Positions 932 to 14,600 of a stretch of 14,600 nt of DNA are shown piece after piece (position 1 is the stretch's first letter; every line of letters starts with the position of its first letter). A program made the translations under genes and the position numbers. Source of the stretch: an uncultured Pseudomonadota bacterium (GTDB lineage: Bacteria > Myxococcota > UBA796); the NCBI GenBank assembly GCA_913040875.1, contig CAJWHX010000040.1, positions 1 through 14,600 of the forward strand, read 5' to 3'. The notes below the pieces were generated by a model that was given only the letters and a program-made list of their open reading frames with translations, ran no database searches and had not been told where the DNA came from.

Positions 932-1993
932 TCATCTGGGAGAGAGTGGGTTCCGTTCGGCAAACTCCTCCACCAATTCTATACTGCGGGCATCCAAGTC
1001 TGTTGGTATCACAATGTGTACTGTCACAATGTAGTCCGCGTCCTCAGCCCCTTTGGCTCGAAGGCGAAACTTTCGTCCTGAAGACGTGCCGGCGGGGATG
1101 GAAATCGTCACTTCACCCTGTGGGGTACCGACAGACACGCGACCTCCAAGTACAGCCTCTGGAAACGTAATCTGCACCACACCGTTGCTCATCGACTTGT
1201 TTGTCTTTTCTTGGGGTTGAGGTTGATGACGAGATGTATTGGTTGTTTTGTCTGGTCGATTATGTTCCTCGTGTGATTGATCAGCCACAATGTTCACCGT
1301 ACAGTGTAAATCTCCAGAACGACCACCATTCAATCCCGTGTGTCCCATCTTCTCGATGTCAAGCACTTCTCCATCGCGAGTTTCGGCAGGTACACGTAAA
1401 TAGAAGAGTTCCAGAACAGATTGCACTTCCAGCCCATCCGTTCGACGCAATCGTTGGTACTCAAACTGAACCATCCCACCTTTGGATGCTGTACTGCGAG
1501 GCACATCAACTGTTACATGGATATCTTCACCATCACTGCGCTCACCTGCTCTTGCCTGATTCTGAGCATACCGTCCACCAAACTGCCCACCACCTTGCTT
1601 CGAAGACTCTGGATTACCGCCAAAAAGATCATCGAGGTTCAGACTGTTCTGAGGCTGTTTCCAAGATGGGTTCCGCTTATTGGTTTTGTGGGTAAACCTG
1701 GATTCTGTATGAGGCTGGTCACTGGAAAAATTGGCCCCTTTTGGTGGTCTCCATGAAGATCGATAAAAGGTTCTTGACCGTCTAGGCTTGTCGTATAGTG
1801 CACGTTTTTCGGGATCGGATAGGATTTCATATGCCTTACAGATTTGAGCAAACCGCTCTGTATTCTCTGGTGAGTTGCCTGCTTTGTCGGGATGATGAAC
1901 CTGTACAAGCTTGCGATACGCCCGTTTTATGGTGTCCAAATCAGCTTCTTGTTGTACACCCAAGATTTCATACAAACTTTGATTGATTTCCAT
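932..1993 (-). CDS. CbpA-like J-domain co-chaperone with an expanded inter-domain linker
   Basis: J-proteins deliver substrates to DnaK (Hsp70) and stimulate its ATPase through the HPD motif. The preferred start is ATG 1991-1993 (353 residues), preceded by AAGGA six bases upstream; an upstream ATG at 2047 would add 18 residues without a clear ribosome site. Residues 1-70 are a J domain with H34-P35-D36 and the helix IV part AYEILSDPEKRALYD. Residues about 71-155 are a polar linker with a small DDLFGG/GGGQFGG patch in place of a long G/F region. No CxxCxGxG zinc modules are present, so it is CbpA/DnaJ-B type and not true DnaJ. Residues about 156-236 match C-terminal domain I and 270-332 match domain II (PEAVLGGRVSVGTPQGEV, then IPAGTSSGRKFRLRAKG). 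Between them sits a hydrophilic stretch of about 33 residues where the family usually has a short PHPRF-type connector. It is divergent from clpX. No dnaK or grpE is in view. Confidence 0.9.
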   Translation of the reverse strand: MEINQSLYEILGVQQEADLDTIKRAYRKLVQVHHPDKAGNSPENTERFAQICKAYEILSDPEKRALYDKPRRSRTFYRSSWRPPKGANFSSDQPHTESRFTHKTNKRNPSWKQPQNSLNLDDLFGGNPESSKQGGGQFGGRYAQNQARAGERSDGEDIHVTVDVPRSTASKGGMVQFEYQRLRRTDGLEVQSVLELFYLRVPAETRDGEVLDIEKMGHTGLNGGRSGDLHCTVNIVADQSHEEHNRPDKTTNTSRHQPQPQEKTNKSMSNGVVQITFPEAVLGGRVSVGTPQGEVTISIPAGTSSGRKFRLRAKGAEDADYIVTVHIVIPTDLDARSIELVEEFAERNPLSPR

Positions 1994-6128: not shown

Positions 6129-7235
6129 ATGCTATGGATTTTGACCACCCTTCTAGGCTGTTCACGAGAAGATTACTATGCAGATCGATCTCTATACGAC
6201 AATATCCGTGAAGTCTATGAAGATTGTGAAGAAGGGAAGATTGCATTCTTAAAGCGTAAAGCCAACATTCAAACCTTGTTTACCGATTGTGGTTCAAACA
6301 ACATTTACAATTACAATTGGTCTCCTGATGGACGACTGTTCTATTTTCAGCTGTTCACCAACAACTTCATCATGAATCCTGAAAATCAAGGTGTTGATCA
6401 ACTCCCCATCGGTAAGCCGATTGAGCGAGGCGTATGGCTACACGAAACGGCTCTCGTAGTACCCATTGTGGAAAGTGATGATGGTCCACCTATGCTGAGT
6501 GTATACCTGACTGCTGGGATGATACAAAACTATGAGATCCCAGGCTCCAAGCCCGCAGACCTTCAAGTCTATAAAGATAAAACGATGCTGCTCACAATGA
6601 TCGATGACTCTGGAAAAAGACGTCCGTACTTCTTTACAGAGGCAGATGGATTTACAAGAGCCTTTGAGTTCGTCGAAGAAGTATTGAACATCAATGTAGC
6701 GGCAAGTCCCAACCTACTTGCCTATACAGATTCCACCGGCACACATCTAACAGACCTATCTGGTAGCATCATTGCAGACTTTCCCGATGCCAAACGTGCC
6801 GTACCACATCCGGATGGCAAATACGTAGCCATCGAAACAAATGGTGCACCTCTCCCACCCATTGACCTTGGAGATGGAAAGTACAAAGACCCTGAGGTTC
6901 GAAAGAGAGAAGAAAAACGGCGTCAACAAAAGATCGACAGTCTACCGGATTGGGTACCCAAAGAGATCATTCCACCAGAGATCAATATTTACAATGTAGA
7001 AGCCAAACGGCGCTATCGCATCAAAAACTTTTTTGGTGAACGGTTCGAATGGTATCCCAATCAAAAATATTTCTGTTCATTCTTCATCAAAGGAATCGAA
7101 GGACAACTGATTCAACAAAATATTGCGCTCACAGATATTGGAGTGGCACTGTTGATGGCAGACAACGACAACTTCCCTTCTAGTATTGAACTGTGGACAC
7201 CTATTGAGAAGAAGGAATCTGTATCGACAGAATGA
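6129..7235 (+). CDS. Putative lipoprotein with PD40/WD40-like beta-propeller motifs
   Basis: The start is ATG 6129, with AGGAG six bases upstream. The N-terminus is a very short signal peptide ending in the lipobox LLGC with C11 as the lipidated residue, so the mature protein should be attached to a membrane. The 368-residue protein contains NWSPDGRLFYF (about 63-73) and PHPDGKYVAI (226-235), which look like the SPDG blades of PD40/TolB-type beta-propellers. A strongly basic helical stretch (about 255-269) is followed by a proline-rich turn. I cannot name a family. It lies 124 bases after the endopeptidase gene in the same direction and may belong to its operon; a structural or scaffolding role at the envelope is inference. 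The signal peptide lacks the usual N-terminal lysine or arginine. Confidence 0.8.
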   Translation: MLWILTTLLGCSREDYYADRSLYDNIREVYEDCEEGKIAFLKRKANIQTLFTDCGSNNIYNYNWSPDGRLFYFQLFTNNFIMNPENQGVDQLPIGKPIERGVWLHETALVVPIVESDDGPPMLSVYLTAGMIQNYEIPGSKPADLQVYKDKTMLLTMIDDSGKRRPYFFTEADGFTRAFEFVEEVLNINVAASPNLLAYTDSTGTHLTDLSGSIIADFPDAKRAVPHPDGKYVAIETNGAPLPPIDLGDGKYKDPEVRKREEKRRQQKIDSLPDWVPKEIIPPEINIYNVEAKRRYRIKNFFGERFEWYPNQKYFCSFFIKGIEGQLIQQNIALTDIGVALLMADNDNFPSSIELWTPIEKKESVSTE

Positions 7236-7330: not shown

Positions 7331-8398
7331 TCAGCGAATGATCACCTTGTTACAAGTCGTGATCTTTTTCTCAGGCTTGCCTTCACACTGAATATTGTGC
7401 GTTGTCATGACAACCTCAGCTGCCCCCCGTTTCGTAGCGCTTTTGTAGTGCTTGGTGAATGAATATCGATTTTCCTTCTTCTTATCGACTTCCACAACTT
7501 CCGGAGTCAGTCCAGACTTCACCTTCTTGTAGTTGTAGAATACATCGTATGTATATGTACACCCTTCCTCAGCGTAACGAAGGGGCTCATGTAACACCCA
7601 GTATGTAACTTTGGTATCTGGAGCATGCTTACCGATTGGTTGCACTTCTTCTGGTTTCTCAGGAAAGGTCTCTGAGGTGGTGTCGAAAAGTTGTGGCGTT
7701 TCACAATCTTCCCATTGCAAGTCTCCAAGTTCATTCTTCACAAATGGATTGTTACCGTTTGGATTGGAATCTTCTTGGCGCTTTTTGTCCACGTACGCAA
7801 CGTAGTGATCGATCACATTTAAACGACACTTATTCTCATCAATGCTGATATAAATCAGTCCTTGCAACTTGTTGTTGAGTGTATTGAACTGTCTCTTGTA
7901 TCCAGTAAAGTTGTCACTCTCTTTCCCTGCCTTGAAGAGTTTTGTACCTTCTTCAATTCCCTTCTGAACCTTTTCAGAGTCTTGAAGCGTATCATCAATC
8001 TGATTCAAGGTCTTCATATTGCACTTGCGGTTACTGCTCATCAACGTCTGGCACCACTTTGCAACCTCTCCTTCAGTGCGACAGGTCACTTGATCACCCT
8101 TTTCATTCTTTTCACAGTTGTAGTCGTACATATCAGACAAAGAACCCACTGTATACTTGGCACTCAATTTTCCATCTGTACTCACAAACTTCAAGCGACT
8201 CTTTGGATCTGGTTCAGGATCTTGACCGTTGATCTCTCGGAGAAACAACCACTCGGAATCTGTAAGTTGATCCAATGACAAATCACATTGTACGACTTCC
8301 GTTTCTGGCGCCGCTTTTTCTTGCTCTCCACAAGCCATCACGCCAACGATAACGATGGGCATGCACAACATGGAACGTTGAAGGAAATTTCGCATCAT
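7331..8398 (-). CDS. Cysteine-rich lipoprotein of unknown family
   Basis: The gene starts at ATG 8396-8398 (two consecutive ATGs) with GAGGT just upstream. It encodes 355 residues. The signal peptide has arginines at 3 and 8, a hydrophobic core and the lipobox VMAC with C23 lipidated, followed by GEQEK. The mature part carries ten further cysteines, an even number, beginning with C38 and ending with a pair about ten residues apart near the C-terminus. This suggests up to five disulfides and an exported, oxidised protein. The rest is highly charged, with several short beta-rich segments. I recognise no enzymatic motif. The gene stands alone, convergent with the propeller-like lipoprotein gene and divergent from rdgB. 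Confidence 0.85.
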   Translation of the reverse strand: MMRNFLQRSMLCMPIVIVGVMACGEQEKAAPETEVVQCDLSLDQLTDSEWLFLREINGQDPEPDPKSRLKFVSTDGKLSAKYTVGSLSDMYDYNCEKNEKGDQVTCRTEGEVAKWCQTLMSSNRKCNMKTLNQIDDTLQDSEKVQKGIEEGTKLFKAGKESDNFTGYKRQFNTLNNKLQGLIYISIDENKCRLNVIDHYVAYVDKKRQEDSNPNGNNPFVKNELGDLQWEDCETPQLFDTTSETFPEKPEEVQPIGKHAPDTKVTYWVLHEPLRYAEEGCTYTYDVFYNYKKVKSGLTPEVVEVDKKKENRYSFTKHYKSATKRGAAEVVMTTHNIQCEGKPEKKITTCNKVIIR

Positions 8399-9260: not shown

Positions 9261-9656
9261 CTAGTACAATAGCTCTTGAATGTATTCAAATAGAAGATCG
9301 TTTGAGAGGTTCAATTTCTCTGCCGCAACTTGAAGTATCGCAATTTCGCCTGGATTCACAGTACCTGTTGATGCGGCGGCACCAAAACACAATCCTATCA
9401 CTTGCAGTTTCTCATCTTGAGACAGTTCCATCGGTAAAGTCGTTAACGCTTCTTCCAGGAGCGGAGGAAATGTTTGAGGATCGGTCAAGTCCAAAGCGTG
9501 TAATACATTACTCGGGAAATGCTCTTGAACGTAGGCCAATTCTTCAGGTTCAGCAATTTCATCGGCCCAAATGATCTTTTGTATAAAAAACATGGAGAAA
9601 ACATATTTCAACCGATGTTTTCGAAGTTCTTCAATACTATTTTGAGAATACGTCAT
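9261..9656 (-). CDS. Small TerB-like helical protein
   Basis: The gene encodes 131 residues, predicted all-helical and acidic. WADEIAEPEELAYV (30-43) resembles the ADGxIxxxE repeat of TerB/DjlA-N domains, with D32-E33 and E38 in the metal-binding positions of that family. The second half (ASTGTVNPGEIAILQVAAEKLNLS) gives the matching second repeat, in degenerate form. TerB-domain proteins occur in tellurite resistance and in many membrane-linked or stress contexts, so the fold does not fix the function. There is no signal peptide or membrane segment. The ribosome site at ATG 9654-9656 is weak. The assignment rests on the repeat pattern and not on high similarity. Confidence 0.75.
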   Translation of the reverse strand: MTYSQNSIEELRKHRLKYVFSMFFIQKIIWADEIAEPEELAYVQEHFPSNVLHALDLTDPQTFPPLLEEALTTLPMELSQDEKLQVIGLCFGAAASTGTVNPGEIAILQVAAEKLNLSNDLLFEYIQELLY

Positions 9657-10487: not shown

Positions 10488-13400
10488 ATGTCTTCTACAG
10501 AGAATCCAGCACCCCAACAAAATGTCAATTACCGTGCCCAAAATCTCAATGGAGCATTGTGGGATCGTCGTGCCTTTTCCGATGGAGACTTCAGTCAGAT
10601 TCAGGCCAATGAGAGTCGATTCAATCAAGTTTCTTTTGACAAATCTATCTTCCATGCCGCCATTGTGCGGAATGCACTGTGGAGAGACACTCGTTTTGCC
10701 TCCTGTGCAGGTCGATTTATGGAAATGGAAAATACTGATTTGGGTGGTTCCGATTTCCAAGAGTGTAGATTTGAAGACAGTAGTTTTTATGAAGTCAACT
10801 TTGATGACAGTCAATGGATAGACTGCAGTGCAAATGGATGTGACTTTCGATACTCTTCATTCAAGAATGCTTCCTTACAAAACATTAATTTCAGCAATTG
10901 TGACCTAGCATATGTAGACTTTACAGGATGTAGTTTCGAGAATGTGAACGCATACAATGCGCGCATAACCAATTCCATTGGTTTAAGTGATGCACAACGA
11001 GATCAGCTCCTCGCGAGCGGTGCCTATGAGGGATTGCCTCCTGCCATCAACAAACTTCGAAAACGAAGCCTCTCCTTCCAACGATACGTACAGTCTCGCT
11101 TGAGCAGCCTCCGGGAGAAGGTCAAACCCACGACGTGGGTGGATACACAAGGCCTTGTACAAAAGGCTCAGGATACTTTTCAAGAATGGCGCGAAGAACG
11201 TCGCCGGCAACAGGAAGAACTGCAGCGACAGGAAGATGAGTGGCGCAAAGAACAAGAGGCCCGAAGATTAAAGAGCATTGAAGATCGAAAAATCCGAGAA
11301 GACCGAAGACGTCAAGAAAAAGAAGCGCAACAGGTGGAACGCGAGCGCCTTCAAGAACGTCGACGTCAAGAGCAGGATATTCAAGATCTTCTACAATCGC
11401 AACAATCCGAACGACATCAACTGCAAAAGGAAATCGAGCAGTTCTTCGGAAGCTTAGAACAACGCGAAACAGAACCAGAATACATCGAGGCCATTGGTAA
11501 CCAAGCCAATATGCTTTATCAGGATACGGAAGATTCCCTCAAATTAGAAGAGATTCTTCGACAGCAACTGAAGCATTCTCCTTTGGATACTGATCTACAG
11601 CAACAACTGACCAGTCAGACCAATCAAACACAGCAGTTAGCAGCAGAAGCACTCGACGCTCAGCAGCGATACTTCAAAGCGCTTCAAGAATGGAAGCGAA
11701 AGGAACATGCTCTATTAAAAAGACTCCAGCAAGACGCGTTGTCACGGAGTACCCAAATACTGCTTGAAAACAAGTCTCAATTTACCGTCGATTCTGATGC
11801 ATTCAAACAACAAATATTAACGATTGAGACTCAAAGCCATCGTGATTTATTGCGGGCACAGTTGGAAGATGAACAAAAAGCCATTCGTATCGAGCGCGAG
11901 GAACTTGAGAATGCCGTATCACTCGAGCAATCTGAGCCCGAGGCAAATACCGAGATAGAGACCGAACAAATACAAGATCTCCTTCCTGCCCTAACGCCAG
12001 ATACCAAACCCGATCCCCTCTTGTCTAGCGAAGGATTGACAGATCTACATCACGCAATCGAAGAACAGTCGATAACTACGAAATTAGACGTCAGTACAGC
12101 AGACATAGCTGAGCCAGTCTCACAAGAAGCTACCGAACCCTTTTCCTCTGACGAGGAAATCGTCGAAAGTTCTGAAGAATTGGTCTCCATCAATGAGCCT
12201 GTGGAAACACCGCATACGGAAGAGTACCAAAGTTTGTTTTCTCGAGTCACAGAGTGGTTTGCAACCAATACTGAGGTGACTGCAGAGGGTTCTGAAACGA
12301 TTGAAGAAACTCAGGATCCGTTAACCGAACTGACTCAACGAATTGAAACCCAGTACGAACAAGAGTTAACGCGCATCGAAGAGCACATCGGTTCAGAGAC
12401 CTTGCAACCGAGTCTTCTGGATTCACTCAAAGAAATACAACAAACGTCCATCCAGGAAATCCTCGATGCCAATACCGAGGTCACATTTTTGTCTGAAGAG
12501 GCCATTCAAAATCTTCAATCTGATCTTATTACCACCTCATTGTTGTCATTCAAAGAACAGTTGGAAACAGAGCGTGTACTGGCAGACAAAAAGGCGGCAC
12601 TGGCCAAGCAAAGAGAACTTGAGCAGAAACGTCTTGAGGAAGAACGAGAGAATGTAAAAAGACAACAAAAGGAACTCGAAGAACTAAAAAAGTCAGAGAG
12701 AGCCGCACTCGTTCGGCAAAGACAACTTGAACTCGAAACGCAACACAAGAAACAACTCCAATCCATCATTGAGAGTCGATATGCACAGTTCGAAAAATCA
12801 ATAACCCAAAGTCCTGAAGAAGAGGCTGAGTCCTTCGGTAGTGTTGAAGAGCTCGAAATCGCAACAACACAACTCCAGCAACTTCAAGGTCTTTCTTTCA
12901 ATAAGACGGTGCAAACGTTCATTGAATCTGAAGCCCAAAAGCAACGTAAAGAACTCGAAGAAAAGATAAAGCAAGAGGAACTTCAACGACAGCGCGAACT
13001 CGACGCACAGGCAGTCGCACAGAAAAAATTAGACCGAGACGAAGAACGAAAGCGCAAAGAGGCACACCGTGCGTTCTTAAAGAAACAGACCGAAGAGGCT
13101 AAGGCTGCGGCGCGAATAGCAGAAATCGAACGTCGAGAACAAATTGAAAAGGAAAAAGCTGCTAGAGAGGCCGCTGAGCAAGAACGCCAAGAACGACTCG
13201 CAAAAGAAAAAGCGGAAACTCGTGCCGCAGAATCAGAACGGCGGAAACAAATCGCCAAAGAAAAGGAAGCCGAGCGGCTTGCCGCGATTACACGTAAAGA
13301 GTTGCTAGCCAAAGAGAAGTCAGAAGCACGAGCTTTCGAACGTGAACAAGTCGCAAAAGAAAAAGCGGAGGCACGTGCCGCAAACCTGGCTGAAAAGGCG

Positions 13401-14600
13401 AAAAGACAAGAACAACTCAACAAAGAAAAGGCCGAAAGACAACGCCTACAGGAAGAAAAGAAGAAACTTGTCGAGTCAGAAAAGGAGAGAAAGAGACAGG
13501 CGCGGCTTGAACAAAAGAGAATCGATGAGGAACAAAAACGACAGGAGGAAGACCGTCGAAAACAAGAACGTGAGTTGAAAAGACTCGAGGCTCTGGAGAA
13601 GGAACAGCAGGCAACCATTGAAAGAAAACGCGAAAGACTTTCCTTCTTAAAAGATCAACTTCTTGAAGAGGCACGGCGACAAGAATATCAAGAACTCTCC
13701 GCACAAATCGAAGCAGATATTGAAGTGCAGCAGTCACAAGCACTCGAACGACAACGCAAACAAGAAATATTTTTAAATCAAGTCCGAGCTGAACAGAAAC
13801 GTAGAGCCAATGATCCCTTATTGCTAGAACAGGAGCGGCAGCAAGATTTGCTGTTGCGTAAGCAAGAACGCCTCCAACGTTTACAAGAACGCGAACGAGA
13901 AGTTCAGAATGCGTTGTTGCAACTTCAAACAGATTATGAAAGTGAAAAGATATCTGCACCAACTGAAGATCTCGCCATTCAGATTCAAAGTCCAATGCAG
14001 CAACGATGGTACCGATTCACCGATGTCGTGTCCTCACAATCTCCAACTTTGGCACAATCTCTGGACACCTTCAAGGAACAACTAGAAGAGTTGTATATCT
14101 CTAGACAAGCCCAAGCGCGATTTTCAAGAGAGCAACAAAAGCAACTTGCAGCCAGTGCTCTAGAAGAAAAAAGGCGATTGGAGCACCAAGAGAGACTCAA
14201 CCGCCTAGCGGAAATTCGTAGTAAGGAAGAGCGACGAGAAGCTCGGATACTCGATGAAGCAGAGCAACGAGCAAGAAAAGAAGCTAAGGCGGATAGACAA
14301 GAACGCCGATTGGCTATGGAACACACTGAACGACATCAGTTGCATCGAATCGAAGCAATGAACTTCACCGCTGCCATCTCCCTGGTCGATCAAGATCTTA
14401 GGGGGGAAAACCATATCGCGGCCGAATGGATGAAGACCAATGCTCAACGGTGTCTACTGAGCGGTATCAGACTTGAGGCCGCAAATTTAATTGAGGCGGA
14501 TCTTTCCTTGGCTTTACTGGACTATGCCAATTTAAAAGGAGCCACGTTGGATGGGGCAACCTTACACAAAAGCAATTTGGAAGGGGCCAATCTACAACAC
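10488..14600 (+). CDS. Giant protein: pentapeptide domain, long coiled coil, second pentapeptide domain (3' end outside window)
   Basis: One frame is open from ATG 10488 to the edge (1371 codons), read codon by codon with no stop. The start follows a TGA directly (TGAATG) and has no clear ribosome site. Residues 20-160 carry a large or hydrophobic residue (mostly F, L or W) at nearly every fifth position, 29 steps without a break, e.g. SDFQE, SSFYE, CDLAY: a right-handed pentapeptide beta-helix. It is closed by GLSDAQRDQLLASGAY (165-180). Residues about 226-325 are E/R/Q coiled coil. Residues 326-483 are helical with less charge. Residues 484-618 are an acidic S/T/P-rich linker. Residues about 685-1158 form the main E/K/R/Q coiled coil, with an 18-residue tandem repeat at 874-982. 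Residues 1205-1285 are more coiled coil. From about 1322 a canonical A(N/D)LxG pentapeptide domain begins and runs off the edge. No signal peptide, membrane segment or catalytic motif is visible. It is probably a cytoplasmic rod-like scaffold; the function is unknown. Confidence 0.93.
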   Translation, partial: MSSTENPAPQQNVNYRAQNLNGALWDRRAFSDGDFSQIQANESRFNQVSFDKSIFHAAIVRNALWRDTRFASCAGRFMEMENTDLGGSDFQECRFEDSSFYEVNFDDSQWIDCSANGCDFRYSSFKNASLQNINFSNCDLAYVDFTGCSFENVNAYNARITNSIGLSDAQRDQLLASGAYEGLPPAINKLRKRSLSFQRYVQSRLSSLREKVKPTTWVDTQGLVQKAQDTFQEWREERRRQQEELQRQEDEWRKEQEARRLKSIEDRKIREDRRRQEKEAQQVERERLQERRRQEQDIQDLLQSQQSERHQLQKEIEQFFGSLEQRETEPEYIEAIGNQANMLYQDTEDSLKLEEILRQQLKHSPLDTDLQQQLTSQTNQTQQLAAEALDAQQRYFKALQEWKRKEHALLKRLQQDALSRSTQILLENKSQFTVDSDAFKQQILTIETQSHRDLLRAQLEDEQKAIRIEREELENAVSLEQSEPEANTEIETEQIQDLLPALTPDTKPDPLLSSEGLTDLHHAIEEQSITTKLDVSTADIAEPVSQEATEPFSSDEEIVESSEELVSINEPVETPHTEEYQSLFSRVTEWFATNTEVTAEGSETIEETQDPLTELTQRIETQYEQELTRIEEHIGSETLQPSLLDSLKEIQQTSIQEILDANTEVTFLSEEAIQNLQSDLITTSLLSFKEQLETERVLADKKAALAKQRELEQKRLEEERENVKRQQKELEELKKSERAALVRQRQLELETQHKKQLQSIIESRYAQFEKSITQSPEEEAESFGSVEELEIATTQLQQLQGLSFNKTVQTFIESEAQKQRKELEEKIKQEELQRQRELDAQAVAQKKLDRDEERKRKEAHRAFLKKQTEEAKAAARIAEIERREQIEKEKAAREAAEQERQERLAKEKAETRAAESERRKQIAKEKEAERLAAITRKELLAKEKSEARAFEREQVAKEKAEARAANLAEKAKRQEQLNKEKAERQRLQEEKKKLVESEKERKRQARLEQKRIDEEQKRQEEDRRKQERELKRLEALEKEQQATIERKRERLSFLKDQLLEEARRQEYQELSAQIEADIEVQQSQALERQRKQEIFLNQVRAEQKRRANDPLLLEQERQQDLLLRKQERLQRLQEREREVQNALLQLQTDYESEKISAPTEDLAIQIQSPMQQRWYRFTDVVSSQSPTLAQSLDTFKEQLEELYISRQAQARFSREQQKQLAASALEEKRRLEHQERLNRLAEIRSKEERREARILDEAEQRARKEAKADRQERRLAMEHTERHQLHRIEAMNFTAAISLVDQDLRGENHIAAEWMKTNAQRCLLSGIRLEAANLIEADLSLALLDYANLKGATLDGATLHKSNLEGANLQH
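13107..13433 (+). repeat. 18-residue (54-bp) tandem coiled-coil repeat inside the giant gene
   Basis: Four consecutive 54-bp units (13107-13160, 13161-13214, 13215-13268, 13269-13322) encode 18 residues each and end in KEKA, KEKA, KEKE and KEKS. The consensus is near xxRAAExERRxQLAKEKA. A shortened 15-residue unit (13323-13367) and a 22-residue unit (13368-13433) follow, both ending KEKA. The DNA copies have diverged much more than the protein pattern, so it is an old repeat kept by selection on the helix, not a recent slippage array. Confidence 0.8.

Follow-up and report, generated by a model that had tools for sequence, protein, structure and literature searches.

The window analysed here is a stretch of 14,600 nucleotides at the start of contig CAJWHX010000040.1 (GenBank assembly GCA_913040875.1, from an uncultured bacterium of the Myxococcota), and our subject is the gene at its far end (10488..14600, + strand), which encodes a giant protein carrying pentapeptide repeats (PPR) on either side of a long charged spacer. 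The reading frame comprises 1371 stop-free codons and is still open at the window end, in agreement with the preliminary description of this DNA, which had reported one frame of at least 1371 codons. Since a relative of 946 aa (P0002, source name 'Deltaproteobacteria bacterium') is 81% identical to the window protein over residues 1-944, we rejected the possibility of an artefact and regard the frame as being under coding constraint. Colinearity with one relative (P0013) and the length of another (P0123) indicate that the full protein very probably has about 2,500 residues, of which the window encodes the first 1371, the front half.

Pentapeptide repeats are familiar chiefly from small proteins that bind gyrase, or as orphan domains. 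Pfam PPR families matched both ends of the window protein, PF00805 (E = 1e-23) over five stretches, the best at residues 1332-1370, and PF13599 with its best stretch at residues 88-154. In a register scan (PPR and transmembrane calls were made with simple custom scripts), the first block, PPR1, occupied residues 13-162 (10524..10973, +) in 30 five-residue steps, and the second, PPR2, began at residue 1312 and ran for 12 steps until cut by the window end (residues 1312-1371, 14421..14600, +); none of 300 shuffles of the protein gave a segment above the scan threshold. Both domains had been recognised earlier, the first with 29 steps and the second from about residue 1322, and it is the step count and the starting point that the scan revises. 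AlphaFold2 modelling of residues 1-240 from ten aligned sequences gave a beta-helix at about residues 10-166, with ten-residue means of the predicted local distance difference test (pLDDT) of 93-98 across residues 11-180, followed by a cap helix (168-176) and low-confidence helices at 185-211 and 220-239. The cap helix and the motif GAYEGLPP make up the PPR1 junction (residues 168-185, 10989..11042, +); the motif is present in five of the ten rows of the N-terminal alignment (P0001, which is the window protein, P0002, P0003, P0004 and P0006), and P0123 has GAYEGLAP at this place. A Foldseek search with PPR1 returned designed PPR solenoids, AlbG, QnrB1, MfpA and HetL as the best solved matches (E about 1e-8 to 1e-9, query TM-scores about 0.2-0.57). 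The tandem five-residue repeats and predicted beta-helix place the protein in the pentapeptide-repeat superfamily (PF00805/PF13599); a match to PF23894 (LD_SV2, 33 bits where the cutoff is 29) probably reflects a cross-match between repeat folds.

The spacer covers residues 163-1311 (1149 residues) and is rich in E, K, R and Q. It was scanned in 56-residue windows for a hydrophobic period of 3.4-3.65 at z >= 2, alanine not being counted as hydrophobic, with a simple script and no dedicated coiled-coil predictor. A period near 3.5 (z 2.0-4.7 versus shuffles) was detected solely in windows 297-352, 353-408 and 577-632. The most charged windows (241-296 and 857-1024) contained 11-14% strongly hydrophobic residues, alanine again uncounted, showed no hydrophobic period, and carried 5-13 opposite i,i+4 charge pairs per 56 residues, with 10-13 in three of the four. 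A K/R-poor stretch at about 460-700 interrupts the rod, prolines lying mostly at about 470-600, and shorter K/R-poor stretches are found at about 300-400, 760-820 and 1140-1200. The continuous heptad periodicity of canonical long coiled-coil cytoskeletal proteins was not detected by this script beyond the three windows at z >= 2, and with the K/R-poor break these results do not support the earlier statement that the core is more than 1000 residues of coiled coil. Judging from composition and periodicity, an interrupted rod of charged helix describes the core better than a continuous coiled coil does.

Within the spacer we distinguish, with approximate bounds, a charged helical segment A (residues 186-474, 11043..11909, +) drawn from the scan and the P0123 alignment, which over residues 191-474 shares 36% identity with its P0123 counterpart; an acidic low-complexity break recognised by composition (residues 475-620, 11910..12347, +); and a charged helical segment B (residues 621-1150, 12348..13937, +) drawn from the scan, which includes the E/K/R-rich residues 857-1024. 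PPR2 is then preceded by the motif WYRFTDxxSxxSPxLAxxLDxxKEQLEE (residues 1174-1201, 14007..14090, +) and by a conserved, putatively membrane-proximal helical segment (residues 1202-1311, 14091..14420, +) delimited by alignment with P0123 and P0013. A regular-expression search found the motif in 10 of 41 sequences (P0001, P0003, P0004, P0006, P0009, P0010, P0013, P0014, P0017 and L001), and it is also present in P0123. The form W(Y/F)xxTD...S...LD occurs twice in P0009, P0010, P0014, P0017 and L001, once in the second half of the spacer and once before PPR2.

Relatives and the complete architecture

Distant relatives found through the N-terminal part (P0003 and P0004, about 2312 aa) extend past PPR2 into a hydrophobic helix and tetratricopeptide repeats (TPR), and those found through the PPR2 region do likewise. 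A charged spacer between PPR1 and PPR2, then a single hydrophobic helix and some 1,000 residues of TPR-type repeats, is the order observed in the complete relatives P0123, P0003, P0004, P0006, P0009, P0010, P0014, P0017, P0041, L001, L041, L047, L051, L054, L056 and L057. In relatives, PPR2 has 16-34 steps with the hydrophobic helix next, the TPR part, by sequence and model, folds into some 27 hairpins of TPR type, and family members span about 1,600-3,700 residues, some locus sizes being those of stop-to-stop frames. Membership lists are lower bounds: two protein searches scored just the candidates with most words in common with the query (7976 and 7989), and the PPR2-region search gave the best 120 of 138 matches.

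The closest complete relative found is P0123 (2558 aa), in which a predicted transmembrane helix (residues 1543-1561) precedes a C-terminal part 996 residues long. BLASTP aligned it to window residues 14-432 at 39% identity, and global alignments with author-set bounds gave 43% for PPR1, 35% for the spacer, 46% for residues 1151-1311 and 50% for PPR2 (54 columns). Around PPR2, the window protein is colinear with P0013 (window 1163-1370 to 274-482, E = 1.7e-51), P0003 (1170-1371 to 970-1169, E = 4.3e-34) and P0006 (1164-1368 to 1170-1378, E = 7.9e-34); six further relatives of the ten tested align colinearly in this region, and P0041 aligns through its PPRs only. Taken by itself, the segment before PPR2 aligns with P0013 across 160 columns at 47.5% identity and E = 4e-35, where the best of 200 shuffles reached 0.11; P0013 has a single PPR block, begins inside the rod and runs 1144 residues further. 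The window protein thus shows both the PPR1-spacer-PPR2 order and colinear homology around PPR2. Over the 15 pairs of six complete proteins, mean identity was 44% for PPR2, 41% for the transmembrane helix, 39% for PPR1, 38% for the TPR part (hereafter the ectodomain) and, with large gaps in many of the alignments, 30% for the spacer.

Two PPR blocks with a spacer of at least 150 residues were present in 19 of the 24 relatives compared, and in 16 of the 24 the blocks lie at least 600 residues apart in one chain. The three-part order that had been proposed from the window therefore recurs, and these 24 relatives do not have the two ends always as separate proteins. P0005, P0013 and P0021 have the second block only and look truncated, and P0034 has a spacer of 59 residues. 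In L043 and P0015, four and six PPR blocks, respectively, of about 21-40 steps each replace the charged rod before the transmembrane helix and the TPR part.

Membrane topology and spacer length

All 39 aligned relatives that reach past PPR2 have there a best 19-residue Kyte-Doolittle window of at least 1.33 (the best window within a given region being scored), followed by TPR-type sequence. It had been remarked earlier that no membrane segment is visible; this holds for the window, because it is cut inside PPR2, but not as a property of the protein, as judged by these 39 relatives. The net charge flanking the helix favoured a cytoplasmic N-terminus in 31 of the 39. All 16 rows of alignment A3, which were author-chosen and are partly redundant, retain the same two cysteines in the TPR part, 13-20 residues apart. 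In an AlphaFold2 model of L001 residues 850-2046 (mean pLDDT 85.5; predicted TM-score 0.45, so that the overall shape is unreliable), PPR2 rungs and a cap helix are followed by a helix at the expected transmembrane place and 55 further hairpin helices to the C-terminus, and the two cysteines fall in neighbouring helices (721-734 and 739-751 of the segment). A cysteine pair so placed would be in keeping with a disulfide in the oxidising periplasm, and the six cysteines within the repeats of window PPR1 suit a cytoplasmic location.

Spacer length ranged from 59 to 2,247 residues in 24 relatives, versus 935-1,056 for the ectodomain; the 874 ectodomain residues of L043 run into the end of its contig. 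That the whole family shares one fixed ruler length is therefore excluded. Lengths are similar within clades of the ectodomain tree: 608-622 residues in five rows (two of them close kin), 158-168 in three and 936 in two. P0010 and P0017 have spacers of 609 and 618 residues at 42% sequence identity, and P0123 has 1165 against 1149 in the window protein. P0006 is sister to the group with 936-residue spacers. In the deeper clade, the members other than L056 have 842-2247. The tree holds 24 of the 40 sequences made up by the 39 aligned relatives and P0123 (P0015, P0060, P0082 and 13 loci cut at a contig end were left out); 16 of its 21 inner branches are well supported, and half of its rows, 12, drew a flag for unusual composition. 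It is possible, from these sequences, that spacer length is set per lineage.

Distribution and genomic neighbourhood

A profile of the junction from PPR2 through the transmembrane helix into the TPR part matched 25 of 377 Myxococcota genomes, and genomic context was covered in 24 of these (G183 was left out). In all 11 loci that include the gene start (L001-L004, L041, L043, L047, L051, L054, L056 and L057), murA lies divergent to the gene, 8 of the 11 also showing a match to dnaG and 6 one to rpoD; the frames of the remaining 13 loci are open at the start side. A first pattern scan of genome contigs with the N-terminal 220 residues of the window protein gave 31 stretches and no relative among them, and a second, with alignment A1 of the PPR2-transmembrane-TPR junction, gave 15 stretches and 4 loci. 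Because the strict A1 pattern missed most of the genomes found by the profile, we claim no restriction to one phylum. When the window N-terminus was compared with the 377 genomes, 30 genomes matched; 24 of the 34 listed places lay in frames shorter than 900 residues, and the best identities were 18-37%, from which it follows that no close relative of the window protein is present in those 377 genomes. Two PPR matches to the window N-terminus fall in long frames, G173:C11:35754-37754 (3067 residues) and G130:C147:18979-19398 (3060 residues). In the metagenome-assembled genome G004, the gene at about 7289-11020 of L004 is split into frames of 820 and 415 residues and looks broken or misassembled; it is intact elsewhere. 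L001 also encodes a sulfatase-domain protein with a C-terminal TPR array (16713-19124), with relatives in L004 (16899-19025), L038, L041 and L044.

Upstream of the gene, the window encodes an RNase T-type exonuclease, a Ham1-type protein, an M23 peptidase, a Ser/Thr kinase, ClpX and a DnaJ-type protein; the best match of the M23 protein among the 377 genomes is in G001 (54% identity), which points to a Myxococcota lineage outside this set as the probable source of the DNA. A phage or plasmid origin was rejected, as housekeeping genes adjoin in the window, plasmid records gave no match, and a search of viral contigs gave 8 pattern stretches with no relative among them. Three further genes have no confident family. 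A 131-residue protein (9261-9656, -) between the Ham1-type and exonuclease genes had no Pfam match at 0.001 and a trivial NCBIfam match, a 368-residue protein (6129-7235, +) had no confident family in Pfam or NCBIfam, and a 355-residue protein (7331-8398, -), with no confident NCBIfam family, begins by eye with a lipoprotein-like signal peptide.

A candidate membrane-anchored scaffold and its known counterparts

What marks this family out is the presence of PPRs at both ends of a rod in proteins of about 1,600-3,700 residues with a conserved genomic place. Our best guess, to which we give about an even chance, is that the window protein is the cytoplasmic front half of a bitopic inner-membrane scaffold, a tether or organiser resembling the Caulobacter polar scaffold PodJ. 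The proposed unnamed family, PPR-spacer-PPR-transmembrane-TPR, looks from its sequences built to tether the envelope to something inside the cell. In such a protein the N-terminus would be cytoplasmic and the TPR part periplasmic, where the TPR superhelix would dock on a conserved envelope partner; the rod would carry PPR1 up to about 100-150 nm into the cytoplasm if fully extended, although it may fold back, and PPR1 at its tip would bind a second partner, with the PPR2 head sitting at the membrane. The protein would then, in the manner of PodJ, hold or arrange some cytoplasmic component at a site on the envelope, and lineages would vary its reach through the spacer rather than the ectodomain. 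In favour of this reading we count the domain order of the complete relatives, the colinear match around PPR2, the flanking charge, the cysteine pair, an ectodomain far more constant in length than the spacer, the likeness of spacer lengths within clades, and the precedent of PodJ. Of the cytoplasmic scaffold suggested in the preliminary description, the scaffold role survives as the best guess and the purely cytoplasmic dumbbell is not supported, since complete relatives continue into a hydrophobic helix and TPR. If the topology holds, the family would be a candidate envelope-to-cytoplasm organiser in mostly uncultured Myxococcota.

A number of observations weigh against this scaffold. The transmembrane helix and TPR part of the window protein itself are extrapolated from relatives, the window ending inside PPR2. 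Of the 39 transmembrane windows, 7 score just 1.33-1.5, flanking charge fails to favour a cytoplasmic N-terminus in 8, and 8 sequences (P0020, P0082, L002, L003, L048, L051, L054 and L057) carry a further hydrophobic stretch ahead of PPR2, which, were it a second transmembrane helix, would make the TPR part cytoplasmic. Three of six further, unaligned relatives (P0125, P0126 and P0129) have no transmembrane helix above threshold at the expected place, and in the L001 model this helix is weak, with ten-residue pLDDT means of 36-52 around residues 141-180 of the segment. The cysteine pair is absent from P0015, P0060, P0082 and the deeper clade, in which L047, L048, L049, L051 and L055 carry a different pair, 23 residues apart. 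Foldseek matched the ectodomain best, although at low TM-scores, to long TPR superhelices of eukaryotes, most of them from cytosolic proteins (IFT-A, Ski3 and Ctr9). The window gene has no divergent murA, other genes filling its 10.4 kb upstream, and the murA neighbourhood in any case says little about function. Finally, with regard to spacer length, P0009 and L001 are close kin, and L056 (1163 residues), a remote member of the deeper clade, comes near P0006 (1164) and P0123 (1165), which are not its sisters, an example suggesting that equal lengths can arise by chance.

A more specific form of the scaffold, which we think quite unlikely as it stands, is a lineage-tuned tether, in which a conserved periplasmic TPR dock is combined with a cytoplasmic reach that is under selection and has been reset from clade to clade (about 160, 610, 940, 1,150 and up to 2,250 residues). 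If this were true, the rod would fix how far from the inner membrane PPR1 meets its target, and the protein would be a bacterial transmembrane distance-setting tether of a kind that we did not find described. The clade-wise spacer lengths make selection on length directly testable.

The working part may instead be the TPR superhelix. The protein would then face the periplasm and help to assemble an envelope machine, whether for exopolysaccharide export, secretion or motility, with the PPR-rod as cytoplasmic sensor or linker, perhaps under cyclic di-GMP control. We consider this unlikely, even though the ectodomain is of constant length and a Campylobacter flagellar periplasmic scaffold (9hmf_K) stands at rank 22 of its Foldseek list. 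A relative of the L001 FHA-GGDEF protein, whose domains were Pfam-checked in L001 alone, is also encoded close by in 6 of the 24 loci (L001, L002, L004, L038, L040 and L041), and P0124, the L001 protein, gave weak NCBIfam matches to the TPR proteins PrsT, YbgF and PorW/SprE. These matches, however, are far below the curated cutoffs and TPRs match each other generally, and at L001, the sole locus annotated with Pfam, no export or secretion gene was found among the neighbours.

That the protein is structural filler, a mechanical or spacing element with no specific PPR1 partner and a length drifting neutrally, we regard as improbable. The wide range of spacers, the replacement of the rod by extra PPR blocks in P0015 and L043, and the length that remote L056 shares with its non-sisters P0006 and P0123 are all as drift would have it, but lengths are alike within several clades despite differing sequence (as in P0010 and P0017), and PPR1 is 43% identical between the window protein and P0123.

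A very improbable role for PPR1 is that of a DNA-mimic or topoisomerase-binding head similar to Qnr and MfpA, tying the nucleoid or gyrase to the envelope. PPR1 resembles MfpA, QnrB1 and AlbG in fold and is net acidic (-8), but this charge is modest, the first PPR block of the relatives scanned ranging from -1 to -9 with P0082 at +5, the NCBIfam cutoffs for Qnr and MfpA were missed, and PPR folds match such structures generally. We hardly credit the soluble cytoplasmic dumbbell, filament or ruler proposed earlier, as the PPR, rod and PPR that are all the window shows are followed in 39 of 39 junction-covering relatives, and in P0123 too, by a hydrophobic stretch (weak in 7 of the 39) and TPR past PPR2, and spacer length varies across the family.

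The scaffold was finally compared with known systems. No NCBIfam model exceeded its cutoff for P0001, P0003 or P0123, P0124 passed that of the Alr5209 PPR model narrowly (125.6 versus 125 bits), and no paper on such a PPR-rod family was found among the results listed from the open-access literature searched, as judged by titles and abstract openings; in both sources, the earlier remark that no named family has this order stands. A role in anti-phage defence was rejected, PADLOC giving no match at E <= 0.001 for P0001 and P0123. MfpA, Qnr, AlbG and HetL share the PPR1 beta-helix fold and belong to the same Pfam family, but they are small (178-237 residues), whereas here the fold caps the two ends of a rod in a predicted membrane protein; membership with Qnr, MfpA or HetL was rejected on the missed NCBIfam cutoffs (for HetL, 52.9 bits for the window protein against a cutoff of 260). 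The DUF2169-PPR proteins, called type VI secretion accessory proteins in the title of one account (PMC8747328), are likewise large proteins with PPR blocks, and several with PF09937 are among the PPR2-region search matches listed, but Pfam found PF09937 absent from the window protein, P0003, P0004, P0123 and L001.

For the rod, a counterpart is offered by single alpha-helices such as the KER of CAF-1, in which, according to the portion of the account drawn on here, opposite charges are three or four residues apart (PMC10335832). The spacer is similar in its i,i+4 charge pairs, by composition only, and in this respect the charge-rich spacer resembles single-alpha-helix rods more than a continuous coiled coil.

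For the whole architecture, the comparison leads to PodJ, which as far as the cited account goes has six cytoplasmic coiled coils, a disordered region, a transmembrane anchor, and periplasmic TPR and peptidoglycan-binding domains (PMC8980812). The transmembrane helix and the periplasmic TPR are features that the family would have in common with it, and the long cytoplasmic helical part and the disordered charged region are alike by composition only. PodJ differs in its 974 residues, in that account's description of no PPR, and in its peptidoglycan-binding domain, to which no Pfam match was found in P0003 and P0004 (E <= 0.001) or in P0123 and L001 (E <= 0.01). Compared by domain description, relatives with PPR blocks and without the peptidoglycan-binding domain were not accepted as PodJ members. 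The nearest documented working analogue of the proposed scaffold would nevertheless be PodJ, a likeness of design that implies no homology.

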